From a virus: a DNA stretch of 64,000 nucleotides. Below the pieces are notes generated by a model. The model was not told where the DNA came from and ran no database searches. It worked only from the letters and a program-made list of their open reading frames with translations. Made by a program: the position numbers and the translations under genes. The stretch covers positions 1 to 64,000 of the IMG/VR virus record IMGVR_UViG_3300021197_000485, one strand, 5' to 3'. Positions 5,019 to 63,811 of the stretch are shown here, one piece after another; position 1 is the stretch's first letter, and each line of letters opens with the position of its first letter.

Positions 5019-5040
5019 TTAGTAGATCAAGGAGAAACTT

Positions 5041-10111: not shown

Positions 10112-10112
10112 C

Positions 10113-10246: not shown

Positions 10247-10250
10247 CTTT

Positions 10251-44729: not shown

Positions 44730-47700
44730 ATGCCTGACCGCACATGGCACACAAACCCAGTACCACTACGTAGCTCACCCGCTATGTATTTAAATATGTC
44801 TAATAAGGAAGTCGCTGCCGGTAAAGAATTAATTGAGAGTACACCTTGGTATACTCCACAGTTTCAAGATACTTGGCAAGCAGGTGCAGTAGAAACTATT
44901 AATGTTGCTTCGCAAATGGTTCCTAATAGTGCAGATATGTCAAATTCTATCGAGGCAATGGGTGAAGCTTTGCATTCTGATAATGCATGGGAGTATTTAA
45001 ACCGAGATCAAATGAACGAAGCTACTATGTTTGTAGATCCGTATGCACCGGGAGAATGGGTCAGGGGACTCTACAGTGCGTGGGATGCTACAGCAGAACA
45101 GATGCAACAAGACTACCATAGGGGGTACTTAAGTCGTAACATGCCTCATGAGGTATGGGCTGGCAAGGCTATGGTAGGCGGTCGAGATTTAGAAGCAATG
45201 AAAGGAACGATATTAGACTTTGATGACGATGCGGAAAATTTCCTTAAGGATCGAATGACTTCGTCTAAATGGAATACTAAATTTTGGGAAGATGGTAGAC
45301 TACCTATATATAACTTACTGCTAGAGACTCCAGAAGATCTCTTAACTATTGAACCTCCAGAGGGCTGGGATGCAATAGATGCAATGAAGTTCTTTAAGGA
45401 AAAGGATCCAGATGCATTTAAGCGATATAGCTTAGCTTTAGGCGGAGAGCAGGCTCTTATTGATATTACCAAGGATAGTAGGAATCAGTATGAGTTCTTT
45501 TATAGATTAGGTGAAAGCCTTACCTTGAGTACTGTTGGAAAGAGTTTAGCTGTAGCTCAAAGAAACTGGTCCTCAATGGATCACATAGGACATTTTGTTG
45601 GAACATTAGGTGTTCACGGTATTTTAAACGATCCCGATATGATGGCAAGTATGGCTCTTTCTATAGCCTTAGCTATTCCTACGGGTACGGGTAGTTTAGC
45701 AATGGGGGCAATAGCTTTGGGTGCGAAGGCAGCTACCATAGCTAATAGAGGAGTGCGTCTTGCTAAGTATGCAAACCCGGTTATTATGGGATTAGGTAAA
45801 AGTGTAAACTTTACAAGAAAGCTCCAACACTGGCTTCCAGAAAATATAGGTCCCCATTTAATGAAGAACATTCTCTTTAACGGTAAGAGATTTACAGCAT
45901 ATAAAAACCTTAGTGGAATGAAGAAGGTAGGTGTTGTAACTATGGGTAATGTTATCGAGGGTGCGGTAACAGGATCTTTAGCGGAAGTAGCTAACCAGTA
46001 CCAAAAAACAAGTCGAGGTGTGACTGATGAATGGAACTGGGGTGTTGTTGGAATGGGAACACTTCATGAAATGGGATTAAGTATAGTCGTTAACCCTATT
46101 ATGGGGAGAGCATTTAGAGGTCTGGGGTGGGCCGCTTCATTGGGAGGTACAGCTGCTGTACGAAGCATGAGACCTTTAGGTCTTGGCAAGTATGTAGATG
46201 GGTTGTTAGAGGGAGTAAAGAGTTCTTTAGATCCAAATGCTACAGCAAGAAATGTAGCTGTAGTCCAAAGCATGATGACACTACGCGAAGGTTTATCAGG
46301 GTTAGGGTTAGAAGAAGTTTCTAGTCAGGTTGGAACTATCATGAATGTGCTTGCTGCTAATACTGACTTAGATGAAGTAGGTATAGCTAAGGTTCTTGGG
46401 GATTCTGTAACTCCCTTTATTAATTCTACAGGAGCACACACAAACCCAGAATTGACATTTATTGAAGCCATCGTTAAAAACGAAGCTTTTGCAAATGTAG
46501 ACAATGCATTTAAGGCTTCCCTTGAAGGTAAGATAAAGTTAGCTGCACACATTAAAACGCAAGCCGAAAACAGAAATCAAACTATAGATGAGTTTTTAGC
46601 TGACAATGAAAACAAACCAGAAGTGTTGTTGGGTATTGATCTCCTACCAGAGTTTAATGCTTTAAGAGAACAAGCAGGTGGAACTCCCAAATGGAACGCT
46701 ATGAATAGAGATGAGAAGATGGTAGAGATTGGCAAGTTTCTTTTTGAGGCGGCTGAAAGAGAAAACGAGATTACCCAAACTATTACTAAGGAAGTAAAAG
46801 AAGGTGCAGAGGACGCTGGAGTTCCTACTAATACTTTCGGAGGAGCGACTCCCGGCGAAGTTATTGCTCTGGGAAAGAACGCCGCAGAAAAAAAACTAGC
46901 CGACGAACGCAAAAAAGCTAAGGCTGCCCAAGATCAAAACAAAACAAAACCAAAGACAGACAAGGCACGAAAAGCACGGGCAAAGAGAACTAATGATATT
47001 AATAAGAACATAGAAAAGTTAGAAAACTTTTTAGGTTCTCTTGAGGAAATGGAAAACTTAAACAAATCGGGTGCATTGCCTACGCACTTAGTAGAGCAGC
47101 TGAATAGTTTAATAAAACAGGAAGCACGAGTTAGAAGAAAATTAGATGAAATTTTCACTCATAAAGACTTTATTAGAAGAGAAGGCTGGAAGACACTGGC
47201 TGGTGTATTTGAAGATGTCTTTAAACTTACTGGAATAACCGAAGAAAAAATACCACTAAGCCAGTTAGCAACTCCAGAATCAATTGCTGCTCTTGATTCA
47301 ATAATTGAAAACTTTAGAGATAAACCACAAGATTTTATATCGTTTAGAAACAAGTTAGAAAAGTTTGAGGCTGGTAATTTAGATGTTAATGCTTTACAGG
47401 AAAGATTAGACAAAGTAAACTCAGAATTAGGAATAGAAGAAAATAAACAAGACGCATTACAAGAAGTGTTCGACCAGCAAAAAGACATTATGGCAATGTT
47501 AGAATCGCCTGCTATGAAAGCAATAATGATTGAGAATCAAGCTGAAGCACAGGGAATGATTGTAGGTCGAGATGCTATGGATGAAAATCGTAGGATCATT
47601 GCAAGCACAGATGCGGCAGATCTTCATCCAACATTTGAAGAGTGGAAAAGCAGTGTAAAGAAAAGATACGACCCAGATAATAACCTTACAATGGAAGAGG

Positions 47701-50700
47701 TTTTGAAAGAAGCCGAGATTCAAACTGAAGAAGAATGGGCGGCACACACAGAACAGCAGATTGAAGAATTTATAGAAGGACCAGTACGGCATATAGTTAG
47801 AAGAGGTTTAGAGCAGGGGTGGAGACCTGTTGCTAGTAATGCATTTAATGCAGGGAAAAAGGGTGTTTGGTTTAAGGTGGACGATCTCGATATATTCGAA
47901 CCCTTGATGGTTAATGTAGATGGAATTTTCTTCGATGCTAATTTTAATATAGACGAGATAGCAATGATGCGTACACTTCCTTCGCTGCAAACTGCCCCAA
48001 ACAAAAGACGAAAAATTAATAAAATTATACTAAAGGAAAAGTTAATAGTTGGAACAATTGAAACTCCTGATTCTCTAGTATCGTTGGGAAAAGCAAATAC
48101 TGCCGAAGGAACGATTGAACTGAATGAAGACCGGCTGCTTGTATCAGAAGAGCTAGTGGGAAAGACTAAGGCTCGGGAAATGGAAGCACTTGCGAACACT
48201 TTTGGGCATGAAGTAGGTCACTTTCAATTTAATAAATTAAGTAAAAAACAATTAAGTGAATTTAAAAAATTAACCGCAGGTTGGTTTAGTCCGTCTGCAC
48301 AAAACGAGTTAAATGCTGGAGTAATTAAAACAGAAGAACAAATAGACAATGAAAACTTTGCTGAGATATGGGCTGAGATTCTTGATAAACCAAAGTTTAC
48401 TTCAATCTTTACAACTCATCCACTACCGGGGGGTGCGAAAAACGAAGCAGACATTAGAGCTTTTATAAAAAAAGAATTCCAAGACAAGGCAGAAGCGAAT
48501 GGTCCTAATAGATTTAGGGACAGGCCCCCTACTCGTCGCGGTAGTGTACTTATTCCTACCCCCGAAGATTTTACTGAATTAGGGAAAGTAATTGGAAAAC
48601 TTAAGGATAGAATTGAAGTAATTAAGAAGCACATTAACGCACCTAAACATCCGGGCGGTACCGATAATGAAGATCTTAGGGAAGAATCTGTCAATAAGGC
48701 TGAGCTTGAATCGTTGGAATTTAGATTATTAGATTTGTATAGTTCCCGAGATGAGATATGGAAGAAGAGCGGGCTAGCAGATGAGATAAAAGAAGAATCC
48801 GCAAAATTAGAGAAGGATAGGATTCAATACGAACTTGATCGCAATGAACACTTTAGAGGAACCCTTGCTGACCGTAACATGTGGTTTGCTCAGCTTGAGT
48901 CTGTACGTAACTTATTAACAACTAAGAAGAATCTTAAAGCAATGTTGTCTGTAAGAGAACAAGCTTTTGAAGCTGTTGTACAAGAATCCATTGATAATCA
49001 AGTCCCACTTATAAAGGGAGATTTAGTTAACTTCTTACCGATGGATAGTCGGGTTGCAAAGAAATGGCAAGCAAGTATTGAAAAAAATGCAGAGTATGCG
49101 AATCAGCAAATGACTGTACAGGCAGCTAGAGATGTTAGTAAGAAGGCATTTGCAGCTGCAAGAAAAACTGTAAATAGACTTAATGTTGGGGATTTTGATA
49201 CAAGTAATATGGTGTATCCCCCTACCCCAAGAATGTTTAATACTTCTCCTTTACTAAATGAAACAGCAGATGAGGATTTATTATTAGTTCCTATTAATGA
49301 AGACTATTTGACAAGCCCAAGAATGGAAGATGTTGAAGCTATTCAGAATACTGAAGAGGAACTTAAGGCATTTATTTCATTAGCAAGGCAGTTAGAAAAT
49401 GTAAGTGACTCAACTCATATAGATCAGTTTAGTACAATCCATGCCGCTAGGATTTATTCTGCTATGTTTGAAGGAACCAACGACTACTTCTTTAGGGTTG
49501 GGATGGCTCCTCATGTAGTATTTAGAGAGGCTATTAACTCGCCTGATATAGTATCGTCTCTCGAAAGCACCTTTAATACTCAGTTTGAGTCATTAACAGA
49601 AGCGCAATTACGCACTGAAGCTACAAACCTTCGATACAAGATTGATAAGGTTAAGAGAATAGCAGAGGAGCGAGCAGATGCAATTCGAGCTAAGACTGAA
49701 GGATGGGTTAAGGAACCTTGGACTCAACACTTAGATCGCCTGTTAACGAACCTTACTACAGAAGGTAAGAAAGAATCCCTGCATGATCATTACAGAGTAT
49801 TGAATTTATTAGAAGCTATGGAGAGTCTTCAGAAAACAGCTATGGAAGATTTGTTCAGGGTTAATAAGGGATATGCACTTGAGCTTAATGATACTACAGG
49901 AAAACCTTCAAAGACTACAAGCGAGTTTTCAGTATTTAAAAGTGCTGTTATGAAATCTGCTTTGGATAGATATAACGATGCTAGGATGAAAGGTGAGTTT
50001 GATGCTCTAGGTATTGATAGGTTTCAAAAGAATTTAAACTTAACTGAAGATGATTTCCTATATCAAGAGCATGCAATAGGAAAGGTAGATGATTTTGATT
50101 ATGCCGAAAGTATTGTTACGGAAGTAATAAATAATAGGTTAAGTTCTTTACGAGAAGACTTTACTTTGCAATCTTTTGGGGACGGAACATTAGACTATAG
50201 AGATGCCAAGACTCTTGGGGAAGAGATTGTAGATCTTGTCTTTAGAGATAAACCTTACCCCGGAAGAAACTCTTTAGAGTCTGTGGATGGCGGAGCTTTA
50301 GATAGTACTGAATTATATCGGGGAGAGCAGGAGTCCACAAGTACACGAAGACCTCACTGGGGTGAAGGAACAGCTTACGCTCCTATGCCGTTTTGGACTT
50401 TTGCTGGTATGGTTGGAGAATATAAATTTAGAAGTAGAGCATCTCATGTTTTAAATACTCCTTTAACTGAAGAAGGACTTAAGGCAGCCGCAGAGTGGCG
50501 GAAGACTTTAAAGGAACATGCGAACCCCGATGTAGCTGGAGCGGGTTTACCTCTTACCGTAAGACCTAGAGCCGTAGGTGCAACCCTATCTTCGCAAGTT
50601 ATGTCAAGACCGGTATTAAAAGATTTCTTACTTGAGCTCTTTTTAGATATGCCTAATATTGCACACAGTTTTATCAGTGACCAAGAAACTGTATCCAGTG

Positions 50701-53700
50701 AAACTAAAATGTTTAAGTATGATGAGAATTTTGTTTCTGCATTTCCTAGGGTTGATCAAACTCCCACAGGATCCACTCAACATATGATTGGGTCTGGAGA
50801 AGATCTTATTGTACCTTTCGGGCAGATGGGAAATACTTTCGCCCTTGAACTCATGAATCCAGAATTAGAGGGACTTGGTCAGCTAATTATAGATAAAAAT
50901 CAAGAGGCAGTTGAAAAGGGTAAGGCAGCTTGGATGGCACAAAATCCAGACAAGGAGTTTACTTTACTTGATTTATTTGATCCAGTAACTACTACAGATC
51001 AACAGTTTAGTGGACGGTACGTTGGAAAGATGTTAGCATTGGCAGCAGACCCTCAAGGCAGAGCAGCAGTTAAAAATATATTTAAGGAACTAAAAAACAA
51101 TCCTGAAGCTTGGGGAGTTAAGAGTGAAGAGGATCTTTATATTGTCTCAGGACTTTTAATGGCTAGTGAATTCTCTAAAGCAGAAAATCAAAACAAAGCT
51201 GATATACAAACTTTAGGAAAGTTAGGTTCAGTATTTGAAAGCGTAAAGGATTTAAAAACATTAGATGACTGGAATGCTGCATATGCTGCAATGGAAGAAG
51301 GTTCTATTGGACGAAAGAGATTAGATGCTTTACGCGAATACTTTAAGGTTCCTACGATGCGCCGAGACTACGAAGGTGGTGAAGTAGCTTTCCTAAAAGA
51401 CTTTGATTCGGAGCGGGGAAATGAAATAGAAGTATTACGGGACTTAGCAGATGCGTATGACTTAGAACGTTTTACTCAGTCGGAGATTGAAGCACTGGCA
51501 AGATTAACCTATAATAAAGAGTTACGACAGAACGAGGCTCTTATTGACTACGCTCTTATGATGTCGGGTAGGGAAAAGGATCTTGCTCTTCAGTATTTGA
51601 GATTAGATTCATCTTCAAGTTTTGAAGCAAATTTTTGGAAAGAGATGGTTGTTCCAGCAGTACGAGGACCCGGTGTCGTAATCCCAAAGACTAATCCTAT
51701 CTTTAGCTTAGACACTCATCGTCAAGCTTTAGACAACGTTATTCTGGACTGGACTGTAAAAACCTATGGGCAAGAAAACGTTACAGATACAAACATTGCG
51801 AAGGTTAGAAAGAAGTATGATAAGGTTATTAGCGAAGCAAAGTTATTCTTACAAGCTCGTAAGGATGATGGTCTACCTACACTTGAACCCGGTACAACAG
51901 ATTTTGAAACGTACCAGTTAATTTTACATGGTCAGGTAGATGCAAAGGGTAATGAAATTAAGGGATCTGCTGGATTGTCTTATAGGGATATTGGTTTCTT
52001 TAGAGCCTTAAACATGTACAACTCTACTGCTTATAAGCTAGATATGCCTCACATGGAAGAGGTCTCAGAATTACTTGGGTTCAAGGAGTTTAATGCCAAG
52101 GATTGGCTTGGTTTAGAAAATCATTTACTGTATCAATTATTCTTACCTACTCAAAAATCACATCGAACATCTCCAGTCTTTGGTGGAATGGGTATGAATT
52201 CCATGGGTATTGTACTGGAAAGAGTAGCTAGTAATAAGCAAGGCTTTAAGGATTTTATGACTGAGGCTATGGCTAATATTACAGAACCTAGTACTCTTGA
52301 TTATGCGTTTAAGGCTGGGGAATATATTACTCAACATAACTCCGATGCATTTGGTATGTTTGATATAGTTGATAATCCCTATGTAAAGATGAGTAAAATA
52401 GAAGCGGACGCAAAGGTTGACGAAATTATGACCTTGCATGAGATGTTGTATTACGCTCAGGAAGATAAACTTCCAAAGGACATCTATCCAAACTACACAG
52501 TAGAAGATGATCCTAACGCAATGCTTGCGGCAACTCTAACTCAGTGGAAAGATAACTCTATTGAAATGCAAGAACTCCTGCCAGAAATCATAGACTTTGA
52601 AAGAAAGTTATATGATCAAGGCGATGCAGGAAAAGCAATTCTAAAGCTTAAGAAGAAAGCTAATGTTATCTATAACCCCACCGTGGCACGGGATCTGCAA
52701 GTACCTGAACGACATTTCTTTAGCCGAGAAGGGAAAAAGGGAGAGCTGTACGCTGACACAGTGCAGTCCCCTGCGGGCATTCAAACTTCAAGCCCAGCAG
52801 GACCACTCGCTATGATGCCCTTAACTAAACGCTACTCTATTATGGATAAGGGGAATATCCCATTCCAAAGAATTGCATTACAGCGTCAGATTGACAGGAG
52901 ACGTAATTGGCTTAATGTTCGTTTAGATCAACAACTGGTAGAAGAAACTCCCTTACTCAAGGGTACGGAATTTGGGTATGTCTCCCCATATAACAAGGGA
53001 GATCTACCCCAGATGCTAGATGTACCAGAAGACCTGCTTGCAGTAATTCCAGATAATGAGGTAGGACGCGAAGCTTCTAGAATCTACACGAAGGTTTCTA
53101 CGTGGGTTAAAAATAGAGGAATAGATGAAGCGGTCCTACAAGATCCTCACATGTGGCCTTATCTATTAAATGTCATAAAGGTAGAAACTCTACAGTCAGA
53201 ATTAATTACACAGATGTCTTACCAATCTAGGAGATCTGGGGATACATCACGACAAAGAAAAACTGTGGATCATTGGAGACAGCAATGGCTTACTTCCTTG
53301 TTTGAACTTTCTAATGTCTCATATGATATTCAAAACTCTAAAAGACGAGGCGCATCATTAGAAGAGGCTGCATTAAGGATTGGTATAAAGGATCCAGATG
53401 TATTAGGTAAAAGTTATTATGATATCTTTACACGAAACCGTAAACGTAGTAAGGAAGCTAGTGAAAAGAATAGAGAAGGTTATCTATTAATAGATACCCT
53501 ACTACAGCAATCTTTAGAAGCGGGAGTTGTTCCGGGTGCTGAGGGGATGACTATCCGTAATAAGTTTACGGGAGCCAACGAAGGCTTTGTCATTAACCCT
53601 ACCCAATTAGTTGCAAACTCTAAGCAAGCTCATGACTTTATGAAGTTTATGGTAAAGATGTTATGGAACGATGGGATTTATCAAGTCATTAAAAACGATC

Positions 53701-56700
53701 CTATGTATAGTCAATTTAAAAATGATAAGGGACTTACGTCTGATGATATGTCAGTGTTCCCCGAAGACATGAAAAAGGATTTATATGCTAAGGCTGGAGA
53801 ATATGTAAAGAACATGAAGGGGTTTACTTTTGAAGCTAGAGTTACTGAAAAGGGTATTGATATCCTTGATCTTAACCCCCAACAAAACATTAATATGGAA
53901 TTTAACAAGAATACATTTAAGGCTGTACAAAGAAATGCTTTAGCAGAAGCTGGATTTGGCTTAATGGTTATGGCTCCTAGTGAGCTTATAGGACAGAATG
54001 TAGAGCTGGTTATAACGCCCGAACGTGCAATGTTACTGTTGTCTTATCTTGAAAACTTTAGACTTGTAGAAAGAGTAGAGCAGTCAGCTCACACTCGTGT
54101 TCCTACGGGAACAAAGTTAGGAGAAGACGGTACTAGAATCCGTTCAAGAAGTGATGAACAAATAGCACGAGATGCTTTAGCTCCTAATGAAACAGAAGTC
54201 CGTGAGGCTGCTATGATTGAAACAGATGCAGTTAAAAGAATTGTAAGTATGTTGGCAGACAAGACTCCGCTATACACTGTTAATACGGGCGTGCGAAAAA
54301 CAACTGTAATGGGAACAATGGAGTTTCTTAACAATGACTTGTATCGAAGACCGGGAAATCTTTCAGAAGATGGTTCATCAAAGCATGGGTTTGTTGAGGA
54401 TTATCTCGAAGCTTATATCTCTCCAATACAAAAACTACTGCATAACGTAGATAAAAATCAAACAAATATTTTTGATCCATTACTTGTAAGCGAGTTAACC
54501 GATCTTATAGATAGCACGCGCAAGGGTACGAATAGTTTACATACTTCTACTTTAATCCAACTCTCTTTATTGTTACGAGAAACTAAAGTTACTGAGGATG
54601 TAGCTCAAGCATTTCTTGATCCTGATACTTACAACGAAACTGATATTACCACAGGATGGCAAAGAGCCAAAGACTTGGTGCAGCGCGTGTCTGCAATACG
54701 AGAAGCAGGGGGCAGAGGTCATTTCTTTAATACACAAAGAGGTAGGGATCTTACAAGAATTTACCAAGAAGGACTTGCTAACCTTCCGGGTGTGACAAAC
54801 GAAACAAGTCTAACAGAGATTAAACGGCATTTAGAACAATACGCAGCTAGTGTATTACATCAAGACTCTCCCCATAAGGGGCGAGGGGAAGCTCCTACTA
54901 GGTTAAAGGGGTTTACCAAAGAAGAGATTAACGGAGTCTTTGAATATGCTATGGGAGAAGCATATACCTTTGAAGCCTTGAATGATGTAATGGGTATTGA
55001 AGGTGATATTGCTAACACTGTTTCAGAAGAAGCGGTTGACTTTTCTATTAATGATCAATTAGGATTTAATTTTGATACTGCCGGTAAACAAATTAAAAAC
55101 ATTGTTAAGACCCATAAGGATACAATAGACTGGGCAAAGGGTACTAGAAATAACCATGTGTTATCTATGTTACATACAATCGAAGAAGCTGTACAAAATG
55201 ATAAAATTAACTTAAGTCCTAAGGAAGCTCAAATAATGCGGGCTATTATTGTTCGTCAGTACGAAAGAAATAAATCTTTATTGGATGATATCTCTTTAAC
55301 ATTTGAGGAAAGATTCCCATCTCAAGCAATTATTAATGGCCGGTCTGCATCAATTATTATGAACACTGAAGAAATGAAGGGTACTCCATTAACCGCAGTT
55401 AAAATTTTTGCTCATGAGTTAGCTCATATTGGAGCTACTCGTTTCCTTTCGACTAAGGATGGACTAACATGGCTTGCACTATACAGAAGTAAAGCAGGTA
55501 AAGCTTACTTAAGAAAGACTGTGCAAGCATGGCATGGCGGTAGATTTAATCAAGATGCTAAAAAAGAATTTAAAAGATATTTAACAAACCCCGATGAGTT
55601 TATAGCGGGGCTTGTTAGCTACAAATTATTTAATGGGGCTCTGCCAGAAATTCCTAACTTAACTATTCCTGAAGCTAAGGTTTGGAACACAGCAACGAAT
55701 AATGTTCAGAAGATTATACATTGGTTTGCAGGACATTGGAATAGAATTAATACTGTGTTTGTACATTTCCGTAAGGGAAATCCTGAATTATCTAAACAGA
55801 TTGATACACTTACTCTACATACGATGGGGTATGATCCTATGGATGGACCACTTGTTCGATTAGATAATGATTCTACACAGGAAAGATTTGGGTTTAATAG
55901 TATTAATAGACGTTTTGAAAAGATGAGTGATAGCTGGGAGATGTCTACCGCAGACCTTTCTAATACTCTAACAGAGTTTGAAACTTTAAATGCTATGGAA
56001 TCATTAGATCAGAAGCAGCAAATACGATTAGCTGAAACGGCAAATATATTATTTGAGGGTGAGGGGCGTAAGCCTTATGGTGTAACTGGTATTACTCGCA
56101 CAAGAAAACTACAAGAAGAAAGAAATCTTAAAGAGTTTATGCATGACAAGGATGTCTTTAGTGTTGACTTGTATAAGTTACTTAATACTGCTAATCCAAA
56201 TGGCATTCATGCTAACCCTGCTCAAAGAGCAACGGTTGTTGAAATGGCTATTGATAAGATGGAAGAACAATATGGAGAAGCTTTTAGAGGACATGCTGGT
56301 AGTTTCCTTAGTAAACAAGTTAACTCATTACATAATATGCTGGGTTCGGAAAACAAGGGAACCGCTTTAAGTCTGGGAGAAGATTTCTTAACGGGTCCTG
56401 CTGCCAGTAGATTAACATATAACGGATGGCATCCTCTTATGGTTTCCATGTCGGCAATGGTAGATGATCGGGTCGCAATGATGATGGGGCAGTATGCAAA
56501 CATTAATGGCCTTCCATCAGTGACTAAGGCTCTTGGTGAAATCAGAGGCATCTCTACAATTCTTAAGGAACATCGTAGAAGAATGACTAGTATCTTTGGA
56601 AACTTAGCATTTGAATTAAGCGGAAAAACCGCAGGATTATTAAGAACTCCAGAGAGAGAATACTTGTCACACTTAGATGCACAGATTATGTTAAAGATAG

Positions 56701-59700
56701 ATAACCCTACTCATGAATTTGATTTTGATGTAGATGATAATAAGATGTTTGAAAAGCTTAAGCCAGACCAACAAGAATCTATTAAGGACAGTATGGATAA
56801 ATCTGTCACAGCTTTATCATCATATCTAAAGCAGTTAGTTAAGGACGGAGTGTCTGATGGGTCATTTGGTGAGGGGTTTACCGCTGTTGTTCCTTACCGC
56901 CTCAATAATACTATTAGAGTAGAAGACACTAGAGTTAATTTTAAAAGAGAACTTGGTAATGAAATTAAATTACAGATTGTGAATGAACTTAATAATAGCG
57001 ACACATCTATTGAACGTATCGATCCCCTTGTATTCTTTGGTACAAAATCATTACCTCGAATTCATAATAAGGATACTTTACGTACTGACTTAATGAAAAT
57101 GAGAGAAGCAAACCCTCCTTTATATAACTGGGTTATGCAGAAGTTTACTGCCAAGAGAGAAAAACAAAAGGGGGGATCAGTAAAGATTTCTTCGGAAAGT
57201 TTACGACTAACGTTAGAAGAAGAGCTGAGTATTCCTAAGATAGGAGAAACCGGAAAACGGGATGCTAATACTATGGATGAAAATGCTATAGCTATGGTAC
57301 AGTCTCAATGGTCGCAAATTCTTAAAGATATTTCAAGAGGTAAGATTAAGTGGAGTGAGTTAGCTAAGGTAGGCGTAGATGTAAATGCGCTTAAGGTTGT
57401 ATACGAAAACACCATTGAAAGTAAGGATCCAGAGGTAAGGAATTACATGGAGTCTTTACGGGTTGAAGGTATAAAGGCTTATGTTCCTCAGTTTATTTAT
57501 TACCGATCACGCGGAGATATTAATTCTAAGTTTGTTACCCTTGATGAAAACTCAACCCCCATTGATATGCATATTCACAATCTTGCAAATCGTGCTGCTG
57601 TTGGTATGTATTTCCCTAACGATATCTGGAGCATTCCACAGGTTAGTTCTGTACTGGAAAACAATATCCTAAAGGATTTATTTATTTGGAATCCTACTGA
57701 AATTACAGAGGAATTCCGTAAGGGTCTTGGAGACGAAATTCACGAAAGAAAGATGATGAGGGAAAACTTTAACCTTCACGGAACATTTGGAGACTTTGTT
57801 AATTTAGTTTCAGATGTTATTCATGAGCCTCCCTCAGGAGCTTTACGGAGACCGGATGGGACAGAAATGTCTCAGAAGGAAATGAAAGAACTTTCTCGGT
57901 CAGCTCAGGTCTTACACTCTAAGTGGGAAATGACAAAGGGAATCGCAAGACGTACTGAAAGCCCGAGTCCTTTCATGAATGCAATTGCCGACTACGCTCC
58001 CGCTATTACTCGAATTGTATTTGGTAATAACTTATCCTTAGCCTCAGCTATTGTTGAAGGGGGTATTAATGTATTGAGCGAAGGTCTTGGTAGAGGAAAC
58101 TTAAGTGGATCTATCAGAGGATTGCTTGCACCTATTTTAAATATTCCTATAGTCAATAAGGAATTACGAAGACGAGTGGGAGCAGACATTGCATATCATG
58201 TAGAATCTTTAACGCAAAGCTTTATTCCAGATTTTGAAAAACCTGCTAATTCAGAAGCAGACAGTGCGTTGTTAAAGGCAATGAACTGGTCGGGTAGACA
58301 ATCACTGCGCCCCGCTCAGTGGACTATGACTAGCATTGCTTCTCAAAGAGCAGTAAGTACTCGTTTGTTTATTACGGATAATTTAGATAACCTTACAACG
58401 TTAGTGAGAAACATTGAAGAGACTCCGTTAGATATGACAAACCCAAAAGATTTTAAGGCAAGGATGAGAGAGGCTGGCTTTAATATGACAGCAGTCTTAG
58501 AACAAGATCTTAATCTTGTGCGGTATATGTTAAATGCAGGGCTGCTTAGCTCCGGACGTTTCCCGCAAATGAAACGAATGATACGAGATTTCTTAAAACG
58601 AAACCCCGGAGAACGTTATTATGTTATCAATGAAATGCATAGTAGAGTTCTTTTAGACGATCCTAATCAAGCTGACTATAGAACTAATACTGATATTATT
58701 GTGGGACTTAGGGAAGTAGAGAAATCGTTTATTCACGAAGTGATTCTTGAGCCTAAGGCATTTGATATCTTTACTGGTAACCCCGGTTCAACAGGAGAAG
58801 GGGCAAGTATCAGCCCCCTTGATTCGTTATTTGAAATCTTTAGGCGGCACCCCATTCTTTTTGTATCTCAACATGTATTCCGAGGAATGAATGAGAAGCA
58901 CCCCTTGAAGTGGGGATTTGGATTAACCAGCCTTCTTGTTTTAGATATTGTATATATGTTAGCCCTACGTATGTCTCAGGGAGAAAACCCCGAGGATTTA
59001 CTGGATGACTTAGATAATAACAAATTTAAAAATATAGTTATGTATATGTCTCGTCTCCCTATCCTTGGTCGTTGGGGTTCTGAAATTGCAGGCATGGTTG
59101 GAGGAGTCCTCACTGGCTTTGGCGCACAGCCCGCTGGTAGGTTTATTGGAGCAGCAGCTTTAATTACTGCGATTAATCAACTTTACAAGGCAGGCAAGGG
59201 ACTAGCTACAGGTAGTGAATACGCAATACAAGATATGATTAATGCCTTTAGAATCATACCAGTCCTTGGAGACTCAGTGATCCGTACAGGCTTGTACACG
59301 GGACTTAATATGCTAGGCGACCCCTATGACATTCCTAGGCGCAAACGTCGCTCAGGAGGCGGAGGAGGCGGCTACGGACAAAGCGGGGGCTCTGTAGGAA
59401 ACTACGGAATTAATACATTTGATTCTCCCCTGACCTATGAAGGATACTTAGGCGGACTTGCAGCAGAGCTTACGCAGTACGCTCCATTACCTCAACGTAT
59501 GCAGCAGCAGATTTCTAATTTAGCTCCACCTTGGACGGGAGGACAGAATGCTTGGAATGCCACAAGAAACCAAGAACGAGACTCGTATATGGATATGGTG
59601 GAGAATCAAGAACGCACAGAGTTGCAGGATCAGTACGATAGAGATGCAGGGGTTGATCGCAGCATAGATGTTGAACGTGAAACAGAAGGCCCCGGTACTA

Positions 59701-59768
59701 TTGAAGATAAGATTAGAGCACAAAAGGGAAGCAGTGGAGATCTGGCGGATACCCTAGGAATCGACTAG
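44730..59768 (+). CDS. Giant ejection protein with two HExxH motifs and N4-like RNA polymerase motifs (5012 aa)
   Basis: ATG 44730 follows AAGGAGATGCTTA. Visible: a hydrophobic Gly/Ala region (about 302-340), Lys/Glu coiled coils (about 700-960), HEVGH (H1160-H1164, possible third ligand E1212), then, in order, KFRSR (1899-1903), D2009 in VDQTPTGSTQH, R2202-x3-K2206-x-P-x-M-x3-Y2214, and D2539 in HNSDAFG. A second HELAH follows (3562-3566, possible E3623), then C-terminal hydrophobic segments (about 4727-4750, 4785-4815) and a Gly-rich tail (about 4875-4895). The 1903-2539 set fits the order of T7/N4 single-subunit polymerases. As in T7 gp16 (1318 aa), it is probably injected with the DNA. 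It is nearly a quarter of the window. No frameshift is seen. Confidence 0.8.
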   Translation: MPDRTWHTNPVPLRSSPAMYLNMSNKEVAAGKELIESTPWYTPQFQDTWQAGAVETINVASQMVPNSADMSNSIEAMGEALHSDNAWEYLNRDQMNEATMFVDPYAPGEWVRGLYSAWDATAEQMQQDYHRGYLSRNMPHEVWAGKAMVGGRDLEAMKGTILDFDDDAENFLKDRMTSSKWNTKFWEDGRLPIYNLLLETPEDLLTIEPPEGWDAIDAMKFFKEKDPDAFKRYSLALGGEQALIDITKDSRNQYEFFYRLGESLTLSTVGKSLAVAQRNWSSMDHIGHFVGTLGVHGILNDPDMMASMALSIALAIPTGTGSLAMGAIALGAKAATIANRGVRLAKYANPVIMGLGKSVNFTRKLQHWLPENIGPHLMKNILFNGKRFTAYKNLSGMKKVGVVTMGNVIEGAVTGSLAEVANQYQKTSRGVTDEWNWGVVGMGTLHEMGLSIVVNPIMGRAFRGLGWAASLGGTAAVRSMRPLGLGKYVDGLLEGVKSSLDPNATARNVAVVQSMMTLREGLSGLGLEEVSSQVGTIMNVLAANTDLDEVGIAKVLGDSVTPFINSTGAHTNPELTFIEAIVKNEAFANVDNAFKASLEGKIKLAAHIKTQAENRNQTIDEFLADNENKPEVLLGIDLLPEFNALREQAGGTPKWNAMNRDEKMVEIGKFLFEAAERENEITQTITKEVKEGAEDAGVPTNTFGGATPGEVIALGKNAAEKKLADERKKAKAAQDQNKTKPKTDKARKARAKRTNDINKNIEKLENFLGSLEEMENLNKSGALPTHLVEQLNSLIKQEARVRRKLDEIFTHKDFIRREGWKTLAGVFEDVFKLTGITEEKIPLSQLATPESIAALDSIIENFRDKPQDFISFRNKLEKFEAGNLDVNALQERLDKVNSELGIEENKQDALQEVFDQQKDIMAMLESPAMKAIMIENQAEAQGMIVGRDAMDENRRIIASTDAADLHPTFEEWKSSVKKRYDPDNNLTMEEVLKEAEIQTEEEWAAHTEQQIEEFIEGPVRHIVRRGLEQGWRPVASNAFNAGKKGVWFKVDDLDIFEPLMVNVDGIFFDANFNIDEIAMMRTLPSLQTAPNKRRKINKIILKEKLIVGTIETPDSLVSLGKANTAEGTIELNEDRLLVSEELVGKTKAREMEALANTFGHEVGHFQFNKLSKKQLSEFKKLTAGWFSPSAQNELNAGVIKTEEQIDNENFAEIWAEILDKPKFTSIFTTHPLPGGAKNEADIRAFIKKEFQDKAEANGPNRFRDRPPTRRGSVLIPTPEDFTELGKVIGKLKDRIEVIKKHINAPKHPGGTDNEDLREESVNKAELESLEFRLLDLYSSRDEIWKKSGLADEIKEESAKLEKDRIQYELDRNEHFRGTLADRNMWFAQLESVRNLLTTKKNLKAMLSVREQAFEAVVQESIDNQVPLIKGDLVNFLPMDSRVAKKWQASIEKNAEYANQQMTVQAARDVSKKAFAAARKTVNRLNVGDFDTSNMVYPPTPRMFNTSPLLNETADEDLLLVPINEDYLTSPRMEDVEAIQNTEEELKAFISLARQLENVSDSTHIDQFSTIHAARIYSAMFEGTNDYFFRVGMAPHVVFREAINSPDIVSSLESTFNTQFESLTEAQLRTEATNLRYKIDKVKRIAEERADAIRAKTEGWVKEPWTQHLDRLLTNLTTEGKKESLHDHYRVLNLLEAMESLQKTAMEDLFRVNKGYALELNDTTGKPSKTTSEFSVFKSAVMKSALDRYNDARMKGEFDALGIDRFQKNLNLTEDDFLYQEHAIGKVDDFDYAESIVTEVINNRLSSLREDFTLQSFGDGTLDYRDAKTLGEEIVDLVFRDKPYPGRNSLESVDGGALDSTELYRGEQESTSTRRPHWGEGTAYAPMPFWTFAGMVGEYKFRSRASHVLNTPLTEEGLKAAAEWRKTLKEHANPDVAGAGLPLTVRPRAVGATLSSQVMSRPVLKDFLLELFLDMPNIAHSFISDQETVSSETKMFKYDENFVSAFPRVDQTPTGSTQHMIGSGEDLIVPFGQMGNTFALELMNPELEGLGQLIIDKNQEAVEKGKAAWMAQNPDKEFTLLDLFDPVTTTDQQFSGRYVGKMLALAADPQGRAAVKNIFKELKNNPEAWGVKSEEDLYIVSGLLMASEFSKAENQNKADIQTLGKLGSVFESVKDLKTLDDWNAAYAAMEEGSIGRKRLDALREYFKVPTMRRDYEGGEVAFLKDFDSERGNEIEVLRDLADAYDLERFTQSEIEALARLTYNKELRQNEALIDYALMMSGREKDLALQYLRLDSSSSFEANFWKEMVVPAVRGPGVVIPKTNPIFSLDTHRQALDNVILDWTVKTYGQENVTDTNIAKVRKKYDKVISEAKLFLQARKDDGLPTLEPGTTDFETYQLILHGQVDAKGNEIKGSAGLSYRDIGFFRALNMYNSTAYKLDMPHMEEVSELLGFKEFNAKDWLGLENHLLYQLFLPTQKSHRTSPVFGGMGMNSMGIVLERVASNKQGFKDFMTEAMANITEPSTLDYAFKAGEYITQHNSDAFGMFDIVDNPYVKMSKIEADAKVDEIMTLHEMLYYAQEDKLPKDIYPNYTVEDDPNAMLAATLTQWKDNSIEMQELLPEIIDFERKLYDQGDAGKAILKLKKKANVIYNPTVARDLQVPERHFFSREGKKGELYADTVQSPAGIQTSSPAGPLAMMPLTKRYSIMDKGNIPFQRIALQRQIDRRRNWLNVRLDQQLVEETPLLKGTEFGYVSPYNKGDLPQMLDVPEDLLAVIPDNEVGREASRIYTKVSTWVKNRGIDEAVLQDPHMWPYLLNVIKVETLQSELITQMSYQSRRSGDTSRQRKTVDHWRQQWLTSLFELSNVSYDIQNSKRRGASLEEAALRIGIKDPDVLGKSYYDIFTRNRKRSKEASEKNREGYLLIDTLLQQSLEAGVVPGAEGMTIRNKFTGANEGFVINPTQLVANSKQAHDFMKFMVKMLWNDGIYQVIKNDPMYSQFKNDKGLTSDDMSVFPEDMKKDLYAKAGEYVKNMKGFTFEARVTEKGIDILDLNPQQNINMEFNKNTFKAVQRNALAEAGFGLMVMAPSELIGQNVELVITPERAMLLLSYLENFRLVERVEQSAHTRVPTGTKLGEDGTRIRSRSDEQIARDALAPNETEVREAAMIETDAVKRIVSMLADKTPLYTVNTGVRKTTVMGTMEFLNNDLYRRPGNLSEDGSSKHGFVEDYLEAYISPIQKLLHNVDKNQTNIFDPLLVSELTDLIDSTRKGTNSLHTSTLIQLSLLLRETKVTEDVAQAFLDPDTYNETDITTGWQRAKDLVQRVSAIREAGGRGHFFNTQRGRDLTRIYQEGLANLPGVTNETSLTEIKRHLEQYAASVLHQDSPHKGRGEAPTRLKGFTKEEINGVFEYAMGEAYTFEALNDVMGIEGDIANTVSEEAVDFSINDQLGFNFDTAGKQIKNIVKTHKDTIDWAKGTRNNHVLSMLHTIEEAVQNDKINLSPKEAQIMRAIIVRQYERNKSLLDDISLTFEERFPSQAIINGRSASIIMNTEEMKGTPLTAVKIFAHELAHIGATRFLSTKDGLTWLALYRSKAGKAYLRKTVQAWHGGRFNQDAKKEFKRYLTNPDEFIAGLVSYKLFNGALPEIPNLTIPEAKVWNTATNNVQKIIHWFAGHWNRINTVFVHFRKGNPELSKQIDTLTLHTMGYDPMDGPLVRLDNDSTQERFGFNSINRRFEKMSDSWEMSTADLSNTLTEFETLNAMESLDQKQQIRLAETANILFEGEGRKPYGVTGITRTRKLQEERNLKEFMHDKDVFSVDLYKLLNTANPNGIHANPAQRATVVEMAIDKMEEQYGEAFRGHAGSFLSKQVNSLHNMLGSENKGTALSLGEDFLTGPAASRLTYNGWHPLMVSMSAMVDDRVAMMMGQYANINGLPSVTKALGEIRGISTILKEHRRRMTSIFGNLAFELSGKTAGLLRTPEREYLSHLDAQIMLKIDNPTHEFDFDVDDNKMFEKLKPDQQESIKDSMDKSVTALSSYLKQLVKDGVSDGSFGEGFTAVVPYRLNNTIRVEDTRVNFKRELGNEIKLQIVNELNNSDTSIERIDPLVFFGTKSLPRIHNKDTLRTDLMKMREANPPLYNWVMQKFTAKREKQKGGSVKISSESLRLTLEEELSIPKIGETGKRDANTMDENAIAMVQSQWSQILKDISRGKIKWSELAKVGVDVNALKVVYENTIESKDPEVRNYMESLRVEGIKAYVPQFIYYRSRGDINSKFVTLDENSTPIDMHIHNLANRAAVGMYFPNDIWSIPQVSSVLENNILKDLFIWNPTEITEEFRKGLGDEIHERKMMRENFNLHGTFGDFVNLVSDVIHEPPSGALRRPDGTEMSQKEMKELSRSAQVLHSKWEMTKGIARRTESPSPFMNAIADYAPAITRIVFGNNLSLASAIVEGGINVLSEGLGRGNLSGSIRGLLAPILNIPIVNKELRRRVGADIAYHVESLTQSFIPDFEKPANSEADSALLKAMNWSGRQSLRPAQWTMTSIASQRAVSTRLFITDNLDNLTTLVRNIEETPLDMTNPKDFKARMREAGFNMTAVLEQDLNLVRYMLNAGLLSSGRFPQMKRMIRDFLKRNPGERYYVINEMHSRVLLDDPNQADYRTNTDIIVGLREVEKSFIHEVILEPKAFDIFTGNPGSTGEGASISPLDSLFEIFRRHPILFVSQHVFRGMNEKHPLKWGFGLTSLLVLDIVYMLALRMSQGENPEDLLDDLDNNKFKNIVMYMSRLPILGRWGSEIAGMVGGVLTGFGAQPAGRFIGAAALITAINQLYKAGKGLATGSEYAIQDMINAFRIIPVLGDSVIRTGLYTGLNMLGDPYDIPRRKRRSGGGGGGYGQSGGSVGNYGINTFDSPLTYEGYLGGLAAELTQYAPLPQRMQQQISNLAPPWTGGQNAWNATRNQERDSYMDMVENQERTELQDQYDRDAGVDRSIDVERETEGPGTIEDKIRAQKGSSGDLADTLGID

Positions 59769-59881
59769 GGGGTCACGAATTTGTCTGGGTGGAGGGGTAG
59801 GATGCCGTTACCAGCATCCCCCCCTTACCCCTATGCCGATGGGGGGTCTACCATCGGCTACCAACTACACGGAGGTGTAGC
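59769..59881 (+). promoter_or_regulatory. Three consecutive stem-loops; last one presents the SD in its loop
   Basis: H1: GGGGTAGGATGC (59793-59804) with GCATCC...TACCCC (59813-59831, 7-nt bulge). H2: GCCGATGG/CCATCGGC (59835-59858, perfect 8 bp). H3: CTACAC-GGAG-GTGTAG (59865-59880) with the Shine-Dalgarno GGAGG starting in the loop, one base before the ATG at 59882. H1 may end or process the giant-gene transcript; H3 likely regulates the next gene. Confidence 0.65.
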
Positions 59882-60136
59882 ATGTCTAATGCTAACATCA
59901 ACCCGGCAGACGCTCCTTCTGAGTTCAAGTGCGGTCATTGTCCCAAAACAATGACACAGCGTGAGGTCAGAGCGATGTGTACTGACGAATCCGATGAGCC
60001 CGCTTATCTTATCTGTTCTAGTTGCATCGAGCAATTGAATCAGGAGAATGAGCTGGTGATCGAAAGCGAAACTCCCTTGGTCATTCATGGTCAAGGAGCG
60101 TACGCTGTTAAGATCATGCCATCGGATATCAGCTGA
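59882..60136 (+). CDS. Small zinc-ribbon-like protein (84 aa)
   Basis: ATG 59882 with GGAGG 6 nt upstream, inside a hairpin. Two Cys pairs, C17-GH-C20 and C45-SS-C48, suit a zinc ribbon or treble clef; C33 lies between. The C-terminus is strand-rich (LVIESETPLVIHGQGAYAVKIM). Function unknown. It is the first gene of the G+C-richer end region. Confidence 0.65.
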   Translation: MSNANINPADAPSEFKCGHCPKTMTQREVRAMCTDESDEPAYLICSSCIEQLNQENELVIESETPLVIHGQGAYAVKIMPSDIS

Positions 60137-60436
60137 CTGCTGACAATCTCAACGATGCTCTCTCAAAGTGAGAGGGTATCTATTGGGATTCTCATCCCAG
60201 CTGGGCATTGAGCCCAGCGTGAGAACCTTGTGTGATCAAGGAAGAGTGATCACAAGGAAGGGTGCAGACGCCACCGTAGGCGTTTCACTAGCATCCCTCC
60301 GCAACATAGGGAGCTTTACCGCTCACGATTCACCGCTGTGAAGCTGGTGGCTATCTTACTCCCAATGGGAGTCTACCTTGTATCCTAACATCGTGTTAGG
60401 ATAAACCTTCTAGTTCTACAGACTTAGGATAACTTT
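60137..60436 (+). ncRNA. 300-nt leader packed with stem-loops
   Basis: No gene. Hairpins in order: CTCTCTC/GAGAGGG (60158-60176), TTCTCA/TGAGAA enclosing GCTGGGC/GCCCAGC (60189-60225), CCTTGTGTGATCA/TGATCACAAGG (60226-60257), GGGTGC...ACGCC/GGCGT...GCATCC (60260-60297), TTCAC/GTGAA (60329-60342), ACTCCC-AAT-GGGAGT (60358-60372), TATCCTAACA-TCG-TGTTAGGATA (60381-60403). It is probably a structured 5' leader or stable RNA of the 641-aa gene. Confidence 0.7.
60381..60436 (+). promoter_or_regulatory. Candidate anti-SD translational switch
   Basis: TATCCTAA (60381-60388) can pair with TGTTAGGATA in its own hairpin (60394-60403) or, equally well over 8 bp, with TTAGGATA at 60424-60431, which contains the AGGAT ribosome site of the gene at 60437. 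The two pairings are mutually exclusive. Confidence 0.5.
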
Positions 60437-62362
60437 ATGCACCCTAAAGTGTACAAAGAAATCAAAGCTCTGGCGGACAACCTCATGCCTCACCAAAGGA
60501 ATATGTCACCCATCGCTGCGGCGATTGACGTGGTCCTTGAAGGATGGCTGGAGTTGCAGCTCCATAATGGTCGGGATCTTCCCGGTCTTATTGAGCGATT
60601 CCGCGGAGCCATCATTCTCTTGGCTAACTTCATCTCTGTTACAGAGCGTGGAGGAAAGCCTGTTGACATCAAGGATGTTCATGAGCAGTTGTTCGCAACT
60701 CTCTACAACCATCCCATGATCACGCAGGTATCCAAGAAGGATCCCTTCTCTCGTGAGCCTGTCTCTAACTCAGGTCTGTCCAAGATGACGATGCTTCGGC
60801 TTCCCATCCTGTCCAACTTGATTGGCGATAGGCGAGTAGAAACGTGTGAGATGATGTCATCCTCCCCACTCTTCTTTAACGGAAGAGCTACGGAGAGGAT
60901 GCTGGAGTATCGTAACTCTCTGCCTGAAAAGGTTCTGCGAGGTACGAATGCTGCCCTCTTCCCACAAGAACAGTTCTTCCCCAATTCATTGGTGGAGAGC
61001 TTCTACTCGTATGGCGAGTCTGCGGTTTACATGGATCACCACACCACTGACCGTGGTGCGGGCAGAACCTTTCCTCGTAACGGTAACTGTACTCTGACAG
61101 GGCCAAGGATCAACTTGGCTGTGATGGGGTACGAACCATACGAGGTTACGGATTCCATGAGACCTCGACTCGTGCGACATCTCAAGCAGGCCTACGGCAT
61201 CACGCCCAAGGACTGTGAGAGAATCGCCGTTGACTGGAAGGACTACCTCCGAAATGATGGAGATCCTGATGTTGTACGCATTGCGTGTGACGTTGATGAT
61301 CTTCTGTCAGGTCGTACTAACAAGATGTCAACCATCTTGGAGTGCGATATGCCGTCTTGCGGCATCATGGATGGTGCAGCTCTTGCTCGACATGCCCGGT
61401 TTAACGTTCTGTTTAACATGGCGGACTCAGAGTGGAGACACTGTCGGCATATCATGTCTGACTTTCTCGGAGATCCCACCAGTCTGGGTGGTGGTATTCG
61501 GTTCCTTGTGGATCGAAACTACGCCACTCATGGGAAAGATCTGGACTCCTTCCTCGCACGTAGTGTGTGTTCGGAGGAGGAAGGAATGCTTAAGAGCGGC
61601 ATGTCACCGGTTAACTACGGTGCCATGGAAAAGACTCTTGCGTGTGCATTCCTTGATCTGGAAGCTGATGGAGAGGAGTTGATTGGGAGTGATCCCAAAC
61701 CTTCTTCACTCCTGATGGCTCAACTTGACCGCCGTGGTCTTAGCTTGTCTTCGCAAGGGGACAAGGAAGAAGCGGTTAAGTGGGTGACTCAGAATGTTGC
61801 ACGTCCTTTCTTGGGCGTGTATCGTCAGCAGTTTCCTTGGGCTCCCAGTAACCACGCTCACATGATGCGTTGGTATGCTTCAGAGTTTGCCTCTGCTATG
61901 GCAAACGATGGCTACCCCAGCGTGTCGCTTGTGGAGTGGGCTGGCGCTCATGTCGTTGTGCCTCATTACTATGAGGGCAAGAAACGAACGCTGACCATTC
62001 GCATCCCCAAGCCGGGAGGGTTCGGTCCAAAAGCCGGATCCGCCACGGTTCAGGTTACTCCGTACACAGAAGATCCGGAAGGATACGGCTGTGCTACGAA
62101 GTTCCTGTTCTTTGCAGACGGAACTAAGATGGCTGATTGCCAGCTTAGTCTGCACAAGAAGGGTTTCCAGAGCGAGCAGAAGTTCGACTGCGTTCTGGTA
62201 GGGGCTAACGCCCTTGGTGAGGTTAACTCTTCCATGCTGGATGCTCACCGCATTCTTCATGGAGAGGATGTCCTGTCCAAGTTGACAGGGCAGAGAACTC
62301 AGGGTACTACCCTGAACTTCTCAGACGATGTTGTATGCATTCGCTGCGGCGAAGACATCTGA
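60437..62362 (+). CDS. Possible divergent single-subunit RNA polymerase-like protein (641 aa)
   Basis: ATG 60437 follows TTAGGATAACTTT. No confident family. By eye, ssRNAP-like elements occur in order: DRGAGR (205-210), D304 in ECDMPSCGIMDGAAL (like D-x4-G-I of motif A), K386-x7-Y394-G in KSGMSPVNYG (motif B spacing), LVEW-AGAHVVVPHYYEGKKR (like the T7 VHWVTPDGFPV element), and NSSMLDAHR (like HSQDGSH). A proper motif C is missing; the protein ends VVCIRCGEDI. It could be a split or inactive polymerase, or unrelated. G+C-richer than the phage genes upstream. Confidence 0.6.
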   Translation: MHPKVYKEIKALADNLMPHQRNMSPIAAAIDVVLEGWLELQLHNGRDLPGLIERFRGAIILLANFISVTERGGKPVDIKDVHEQLFATLYNHPMITQVSKKDPFSREPVSNSGLSKMTMLRLPILSNLIGDRRVETCEMMSSSPLFFNGRATERMLEYRNSLPEKVLRGTNAALFPQEQFFPNSLVESFYSYGESAVYMDHHTTDRGAGRTFPRNGNCTLTGPRINLAVMGYEPYEVTDSMRPRLVRHLKQAYGITPKDCERIAVDWKDYLRNDGDPDVVRIACDVDDLLSGRTNKMSTILECDMPSCGIMDGAALARHARFNVLFNMADSEWRHCRHIMSDFLGDPTSLGGGIRFLVDRNYATHGKDLDSFLARSVCSEEEGMLKSGMSPVNYGAMEKTLACAFLDLEADGEELIGSDPKPSSLLMAQLDRRGLSLSSQGDKEEAVKWVTQNVARPFLGVYRQQFPWAPSNHAHMMRWYASEFASAMANDGYPSVSLVEWAGAHVVVPHYYEGKKRTLTIRIPKPGGFGPKAGSATVQVTPYTEDPEGYGCATKFLFFADGTKMADCQLSLHKKGFQSEQKFDCVLVGANALGEVNSSMLDAHRILHGEDVLSKLTGQRTQGTTLNFSDDVVCIRCGEDI

Positions 62363-62459
62363 CCTCTCGTCTAACCGCCGACCTTGGGATGGGCTAGAGC
62401 CATCCCAAGGCTTTCTGTGGGAAGATATGTTGTCTTCCCTTAACCCAAAGGAGTCTGCT
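62363..62459 (+). promoter_or_regulatory. Two perfect stem-loops before gene 62460
   Basis: CCTTGGGATGG/CCATCCCAAGG (62382-62410, 11 bp, loop GCTAGAG) and GGGAAGA/TCTTCCC (62419-62439, 7 bp, loop TATGTTG). The left arm CCTTGGG can also pair, with one bulge, to CCCAAAGG at the AAAGGAG ribosome site, so it may act as a switch. Confidence 0.6.
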
Positions 62460-63116
62460 ATGACAGACCCAATCTCATTGTTTGGATCCGAAACCGATGG
62501 ATCCTTGGACGCACAGCCCGCAACGAGTGTGCAGCACACAGGTGACCAGTCCCCTATGGCTTTTCACCTGATGCCTGAACACACCAACTACGGGATTTCG
62601 CTCATCTGTATTACGGCCCATGGTGTTGACATCATCCGTAATGGACGAGTGACAACTGCTGCAAACTCTCGCACTGTCAGCATTCGACCGCTGAGTGTCG
62701 AGATGATCCCCAAGGGTTCCGTTAAGTTCAACGGTTCCCGAGCTCAGGCGATCCACTTCTTGAATCAGCATATGATCAAGGAGGAAGATTTGGAGAAGGA
62801 AGGTATCATGCCTCCTCTGCAAATCATGGCTCTCCTGCAAATGGCGAACCTGCCATTGGGTACTCGTCCCTCAAGTCTGTGGACATTCCAGCAAGGAATC
62901 CCCACATTCGAGGTACAGAACAGTACGGGACATCGGAGACTGACCTACCTGCTGACTTGGCAGGCATTCCCTGAATGCCAATTCCAGTTCAGCTCCGGTT
63001 GGCATCCCGGCTCCACTCCTGACGGTCTTCTGAAGAAGAACTGGTGGAAGGACTTTCGCAATACTCATGGAGGCACCTCTGTGATTGCGAACGCTCCAAC
63101 CGTTTCGGTCCTCTGA
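62460..63116 (+). CDS. Unknown protein downstream of the 641-aa gene (218 aa)
   Basis: ATG 62460 has a good ribosome site (AAAGGAGTCTGCT) and is preferred to an upstream in-frame start inside the hairpins. Mixed strand/helix, with GISLICITAHGVDIIRNGR near 40-58 and a Trp-rich C-terminal half (SSLWTFQQGIPTFEVQ, SGWHPGST). No recognised family. It may partner with the 641-aa protein, since they are consecutive and share the stem-loop leader style. Confidence 0.6.
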   Translation: MTDPISLFGSETDGSLDAQPATSVQHTGDQSPMAFHLMPEHTNYGISLICITAHGVDIIRNGRVTTAANSRTVSIRPLSVEMIPKGSVKFNGSRAQAIHFLNQHMIKEEDLEKEGIMPPLQIMALLQMANLPLGTRPSSLWTFQQGIPTFEVQNSTGHRRLTYLLTWQAFPECQFQFSSGWHPGSTPDGLLKKNWWKDFRNTHGGTSVIANAPTVSVL

Positions 63117-63240
63117 TGTAAAGACCGCCCAAGCCCGGAGGTGGAGAGCTTTGTGCTCTCCCCTCCCTCAGCCACACTCGAAGGACTGTGTCTGAGGGAG
63201 GCCCATACTGGGTTTCTATATGACGATATGATTTGCTCTA
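63117..63240 (+). terminator. Two overlapping, mutually exclusive stem-loops
   Basis: Stem A: GGAGG-T-GGAGAGC (63137-63149) with GCTCTCC-CCTCC (63155-63166). Stem B: CCTCCCTCAG (63162-63171) with CTGAGGGAGG (63192-63201), extended by ACAC/GTGT. Both need CCTCC at 63162-63166. No T-run. Terminator-, attenuator- or processing-like. Confidence 0.55.
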
Positions 63241-63458
63241 TTGAAGAGTGGAGACCATACCACCGCTTCGCGGCCTAGGACCTACTCATTACCTATAGTA
63301 CTACCCCTAGTATCTACCACTACTACTACCCCCTATATCTAGTATGTACCTATAGTTGGGGTTATAGATATAGTCTACCTATAGTCTTTACCCTAGGTTG
63401 TATATATATTTTATAATAGGTAGTGGTACAGACTTAGTTCTGTCCTATGTCCTAAGGA
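63241..63458 (+). repeat. AT-rich island with three ACCTATAGT repeats
   Basis: About 200 nt without genes, built from CTA/TAC/TAT-rich sequence. ACCTATAGT occurs at 63291-63299, 63348-63356 and 63377-63385, each with the palindrome CTATAG. It is bounded by GC-rich hairpins on both sides. Possible origin, phage-polymerase promoter array or packaging-related site. Confidence 0.5.
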
Positions 63459-63607
63459 GCCCTCCGGGCCTTTAGCCGACCTTCGGTCGGCATGGTGACC
63501 CGCAGGTCGTGCGGGTCGTTCACGTTGGGTGGTTCGCTGGATCTCGTTGTTCGAGATAGCCGCTACAGGACTGATGAATTTCCAACAAAGTGAAAGGAAT
63601 GAGGACT
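63459..63607 (+). promoter_or_regulatory. GC-rich stem-loop cluster before gene 63608
   Basis: GCCC-TCC-GGGC (63459-63469), GCCGACC-TTC-GGTCGGC (63475-63491, 7 bp), GACCCGCA/TGCGGGTC (63497-63517, 8 bp), ATCTCG/CGAGAT (63541-63557). Several have 3-nt loops. Ends with AATGAGGACT, the ribosome site of the next gene. Confidence 0.6.
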
Positions 63608-63811
63608 ATGAGTCTTCTCGAAAAGAACAAAGAGCGTCTTCGTGCCGTTGGTATCGAGGTTTCAGACAAGAAGCCGAAGTCCGACCGCACGATGAGTGAG
63701 TACACGGACGCAGAACTCACCTCCATCGCGTTGAATCCCTCGGGTCCGACGCCGGAAACACAGGAACGAGCCCTGACTTTGCTCGAGGAGAGGCACGGAA
63801 CCCCCGCGTAA
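63608..63811 (+). CDS. Small charged protein (67 aa)
   Basis: ATG 63608 follows GAATGAGGACT; an in-frame ATG at 63590 has no ribosome site. Begins SLLEKNKERLRAVGIEVSD and ends with a helix (TPETQERALTLLEERHGTPA). Soluble, no family recognised. Its TAA stop lies in the loop of a terminator-like hairpin. Confidence 0.6.
   Translation: MSLLEKNKERLRAVGIEVSDKKPKSDRTMSEYTDAELTSIALNPSGPTPETQERALTLLEERHGTPA

Follow-up and report, generated by a model that had tools for sequence, protein, structure and literature searches.

A giant protein encoded by a T7-type phage appears to contain a highly divergent relative of vRNAP, the single-subunit virion RNA polymerase of phage N4. The stretch of DNA analysed (the window) covers positions 1-64,000 of the 64,258-base virus record IMGVR_UViG_3300021197_000485, and the phage is T7-type by gene content, with genes for an early RNA polymerase (RNAP), a helicase-primase, a family A DNA polymerase, portal, capsid and tail proteins and terminase. 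The protein in question, of 5012 residues, is encoded by the large gene that closes the structural block, after those for portal, capsid, tail and terminase, and from this position it is presumed to be an ejection protein. Judging by shared motifs, we think it probable, if far from certain, that residues about 2040-2300, probably with a larger domain around them, constitute the N4-type relative, and we hold with somewhat greater confidence that the module shares common descent with N4/T7-type RNAPs. The case for a catalytically active polymerase, as read from its residues, is evenly balanced, and that the module may work like N4 vRNAP is plausible. We do not place the module in the N4 vRNAP family, since a search for motif C did not find it. 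In addition to the module, the phage encodes, by sequence, two true T7-like RNAPs, referred to here as RNAP1 and RNAP2.

44730-59768, plus strand: giant protein, 5012 residues (open reading frame)
49167-53369, plus strand: conserved region with the polymerase-like module, residues 1480-2880 (family-wide alignments with relatives)
50997-51014, plus strand: putative motif A, D2090-QQF-S-G, paired with N4 D559-GVT-N-G (profile alignment; D in 20/20, S in 15/20, G2095 in 16/20 sequences)
51132-51140, plus strand: D2135-L-Y2137, paired with N4 D610-L-Y612 (profile alignment; D in 18/20, Y in 19/20)
51333-51380, plus strand: putative motif B, R2202-x3-K2206-x7-Y2214-x-G-G, paired with N4 R666/K670/Y678 (profile alignment; R, K and Y in 20/20)

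Invariant residues in a divergent family

As a single query, the giant protein matched no phage record or viral contig and nothing in Pfam, PHROGs or the PDB sequences; 53 related viral contigs were located through the terminase gene. Homologues were collected by a region search of related records, followed by motif B pattern scans and extra terminase scans, and the final family set held 20 sequences (the window and 19 relatives), 19-51% identical to the reference L075; an earlier conservation count over residues 1480-2300 used 17 sequences. In the module region the relatives are 19-30% identical to the window, compared with mostly 70-86% for the terminase, 59-88% for the DNA polymerase and 65-68% for the early RNAP. 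Because this region is far less conserved than those three proteins, the residues that never change in it are informative. Across the 17 sequences the only invariant positions other than glycine and proline were R1903, D1984, D2090, Y2137, R2202, K2206 and Y2214, beside several glycines and two prolines, and R1903, D1984, D2090, R2202, K2206 and Y2214 remained unchanged in all 20. In 84,980 genomes of bacteria and archaea, a pattern scan produced 72 matches, none of them a relative. The giant proteins of L088-L091 (records G014, G020, G021 and G019), of 3808-4650 residues, do not have the polymerase-like region.

An initial annotation, which proposed an N4-type virion RNAP within the ejection protein, had listed KFRSR (residues 1899-1903) as first motif, D2009 in DQTPTGSTQH as motif A, R2202-EYFK2206-VPTMRRD-Y2214 as motif B and D2539 in QHNSDAFG as motif C; translation and pattern matching placed every one of these strings at the residues given. 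Motif B was borne out by the conservation of its three key residues throughout the family, and R1903 is equally invariant, although the profile comparison lends the first motif no support. The other two assignments fell. The stretch around D2009 (50754-50756) is missing or different in most relatives (NTKENPMPLAF, NTAENPQPLAI), and the position of D2539 (52344-52346) is occupied by D, E, S, K or A, and both motifs are, by alignment, chance look-alikes limited to the window sequence. Two of the four motifs named are thus not conserved, whereas R1903 and motif B are. The proposed polymerase itself is upheld by conservation and by the profile match from motif A to motif B, with motifs A and C misassigned and no canonical motif C.

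Profile comparison with N4 and T7-like polymerases

The N4 side of the comparison was represented by 20 Schitoviridae vRNAPs. A majority-column comparison of the whole region gave nothing, and columns were thereafter defined by the query; the first comparison of this kind paired D2090, D-L-Y2137 and motif B with their N4 counterparts, unprompted. In N4 the context of motif A is E-x-D559-G-x-T-N-G, and the distance from D559 to K670 is 111 residues, near the 116 residues between D2090 and K2206; with D2090 as motif A, the long A-to-B distance of 197 that had troubled the initial annotation is gone. From A to B, the profile of the 20 relatives scored 32.0 against the 20 vRNAPs (single-comparison expectation value 0.00046, probability 33%), against a maximum of 18.4 in 100 column shuffles. 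For a wider core and 17-20 relatives the score was 31.5-32.6, compared with at most 21.4 in 150 shuffles and 19.0 for the reversed profile. As a calibration, N4 against genuine T7-like RNAPs from these phages gave 29-37 by the same method. When the N4 A-B profile was scanned along the entire giant protein, the top windows were at 2001 (29.8) and 2081 (29.6), with the next unrelated window at 23.4.

The giant-protein family also matched RNAP2 at motif B (27.4; shuffles no higher than 13.9), and its score against the three early RNAPs alone was weak (19.0; shuffles reach 17.0). A family A DNA polymerase was rejected as a relative, with a profile score of 13.8. One shuffle against an unrelated target scored 31. 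The profile margin is real and modest, and the relation to N4 vRNAPs that it suggests is not proven.

Motif C and the order of the catalytic motifs

Several results weigh against a polymerase of the N4 type. In N4 vRNAPs motif B is followed by [F/H]-D-[G/A], whose aspartate (D951) never varies; the family alignment shows no invariant aspartate C-terminal to motif B, and canonical motif C was not found there. The N-P-Q-x2-K block that trails the first motif in N4 vRNAPs is not present in the family, and the stretch preceding D2090 is unlike the hydrophobic strand before motif A of known enzymes. The HH-suite probability is 33% at most, Pfam, PHROGs and PDB-sequence searches find nothing for the module, and no member of the family set matches the N4 vRNAP domain models of Pfam or PHROGs. 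Two AlphaFold models were poor and mostly helical (mean predicted local distance difference test scores of 65 and 58), and Foldseek searches with both gave no PDB match. Hairpins with 3-nucleotide loops are not in excess in positions 1-5250 (1 found, shuffled mean 0.9). A host-type promoter candidate, TTGACT-16-TATAAT, stands in the early region at 3622-3649 and matches the consensus at 11 of 12 positions; given this candidate, it is not obvious that the phage requires an injected polymerase.

Candidates for motif C after motif B were rejected one and all: D2458 is Q or I in some relatives, the F-D near 3034 is E in the window and varied elsewhere, and D2969 is E in one relative. A motif C-like match at 4340-4387 (22.3) has no invariant aspartate, was one of ~125 windows scanned and is attributed to chance. 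Ahead of motif A, two further invariant residues were considered.

50436-50438, plus strand: R1903, possibly the R of T/DxxGR (N4 R424) (invariant in 17/17 and 20/20; alone without profile support)
50679-50681, plus strand: D1984 in F-I-[H/Q]-D, possible motif C at a permuted position (20/20; preceding H in 10/20, Q in 7/20)

D1984, located between R1903 and D2090, is the sole further invariant aspartate, and it is our best guess for a second metal-binding aspartate. If D1984 is motif C, the order of the motifs is permuted to C-A-B, as in birnavirus-type RNA polymerases. The resemblance of the D1984 motif to N4 motif C was not significant, being matched by 20 of 60 shuffles, the motif being too short, and the surroundings of D1984 appear helical. 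An active virion RNAP with a circularly permuted palm (D1984 before D2090 before K2206/Y2214), in a phage that would then have three single-subunit RNAPs, one of them injected, is a speculative reading that we think distinctly improbable. A limited literature search found no permuted palm in the T7/N4 class, and we know of none.

Another reading is that the region descends from an N4-type polymerase but is dead or has been repurposed: it would have kept the fingers and motif B as a nucleic-acid-binding surface, would bind the incoming DNA or help it through the ejection channel, and would have lost motif C and no longer polymerise. Canonical motif C and the NPQ..K block are both absent, the two other T7-like RNAPs could cover all phage transcription, and the early region offers host-like promoter candidates, all of which would suit a protein of this kind. 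However, it is difficult to account for the retention of D2090 and R2202/K2206/Y2214 in 20 of 20 sequences at mostly ~20-30% identity unless catalysis is under selection, and we consider a dead or repurposed descendant unlikely.

Convergence would account for the motifs in another way, with the R-x3-K-x7-Y and D-x3-S-G patterns arising by coincidence in an unrelated helical ejection-protein domain. The similarity is motif-sized only, at the HH probability of 33%, the AlphaFold models are helical, and one shuffle against another target reached 31. Coincidence sits poorly, however, with three motifs that co-align unprompted, in order and at a spacing near that of N4, with scores equal to those of N4 against true T7-like RNAPs, and with the fact that the best N4 A-B window of the entire giant protein falls here; we rate this explanation as quite unlikely.

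Two T7-like RNA polymerases

The initial annotation had noted that the phage already encodes one T7-like polymerase, which is confirmed as RNAP1; the second gene, RNAP2, had been overlooked.

5252-7759, plus strand: RNAP1, early T7-like RNA polymerase (PF00940, expectation value 2.3e-73; phrog_414, 6.6e-154)
60437-62362, plus strand: RNAP2, diverged T7-like single-subunit RNAP of 641 residues, downstream of the giant gene (family motifs, hidden Markov model (HMM), profile)

In the RNAP2 family (11 relatives), R210, D304, K386 and D584 are invariant and Y394 and D561 nearly so, and all T7-like catalytic positions are filled. A leave-one-out HMM detected RNAP2 with an expectation value of 2.8e-31, three members of the family match PF00940 directly (best 3.1e-49), and the family profile scored 138.8 against early RNAPs (probability 99%). 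The gene lies downstream of the giant gene in the relatives too, and the window copy is 11-17% identical to theirs. In G014 and G020, whose giant proteins do not have the module, the downstream second RNAP is clearly canonical (PF00940, 98.8 and 169.8 bits).

These properties raise the alternative that any polymerase packaged is RNAP2, with the giant protein only its delivery vehicle. RNAP2 has every catalytic motif, including motif C with D584, its gene directly follows the giant gene here and in relatives, and its divergence (11-17% identity) is as rapid as that of the giant protein. The invariant polymerase motifs of the giant protein itself would be left unexplained, however, and we doubt this alternative to the same degree as convergence.

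Between the giant gene and RNAP2 lies a gap of 668 bases (59769-60436) that folds far more strongly than shuffled sequence (z -6.3). It contains a number of perfect hairpins with 3-nucleotide loops, for example TATCCTAACA-TCG-TGTTAGGATA at 60381; these could be hairpin promoters or structured RNA. Over the right end (about 59500-64000) the G+C content rises from ~38% to 51% and the GC skew disappears. Three consecutive tRNA genes are located at 10039-10334.

The zincin motif of the giant protein

55413-55427, plus strand: HELAH, residues 3562-3566, zincin peptidase motif (H3562 in 14/15, E3563 in 15/15 in the family alignment)
55596-55598, plus strand: E3623, likely third ligand of the zincin motif (15/15 in the alignment)
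48207-48221, plus strand: HEVGH, residues 1160-1164, a second HEXXH motif (in few relatives)

C-terminal to the polymerase-like region, the giant protein carries a conserved zincin peptidase motif. The position of the HEXXH is constant across the family, and HEXXH is absent from three checked giant proteins without the polymerase-like region. Fusion to such a peptidase is reported for nearly all N4-like RNAPs, which have been described from N4-like phages or prophages only (PMC5512222), and N4 gp50 is an ejected protein of ~3500 residues (PMC12633501). In L080, L081, L082 and L087, the giant proteins have extra inserts past the homologue of residue 3330 that resemble, by eye, a DnaQ-type exonuclease (INVDIETN, ISIDIETT) or a PD-D/ExK nuclease (IIDVKTKK).

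Comparison with known systems and a possible mode of action

Similar to N4 gp50 and the Schitoviridae vRNAPs, the protein described here is a giant virion-type protein with a fused HEXXH peptidase motif, and it has D-x3-[S/N]-G, D-x-Y and R-x3-K-x-P-x5-Y-G-x-G in the same order and at near-equal spacing. Unlike those enzymes, it belongs to a T7-type phage, its module has neither motif C after motif B nor the NPQ..K block, it does not match PF21867, PF21624, PF21894 or PF21769, which N4 itself matches, and there is little identity outside the motifs. The pattern of motifs A and B is likewise that of the T7-like single-subunit RNAPs (PF00940), of which RNAP1 and RNAP2 are clear members, whereas the module is undetected by PF00940 and its likeness to T7-like profiles lies mainly at motif B. 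The virion RNAP of Thermus phage P23-45 is also part of a virion protein of ~5000 residues that brings an RNA polymerase into the host, a role that is here predicted from sequence; the P23-45 enzyme, however, is akin to the multisubunit RNAPs of cells and has a tape measure as its fusion partner, in contrast to the single-subunit type and the T7-type phage considered here (PMC10770324). If D1984 is motif C, the module would share with the permuted RNA-dependent RNA polymerases of birnaviruses and permutotetraviruses a motif C ahead of motif A, although those are RNA-templated enzymes of RNA viruses and of a different family, and the permutation proposed here is hypothetical (PMC4666646).

For the giant protein with its N4-type module, the following mode of action seems the most likely. 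The protein would be packaged in the virion and ejected with the DNA, and its own zincin would perhaps cut it after entry. As infection begins, the polymerase module would transcribe the first-entering DNA in parallel with the host enzyme and ahead of RNAP1. RNAP1 would then take over the middle genes, with RNAP2 perhaps acting late or being packaged. The missing canonical motif C poses the question of whether the module is a dead enzyme or has a rewired active site. If the relationship is true, the two best-studied strategies of phage transcription would be connected by an N4 relative in the ejection protein of a T7-type phage that has two T7-like RNAPs as well. Such a relative would also point to the movement of polymerase modules among ejection proteins.

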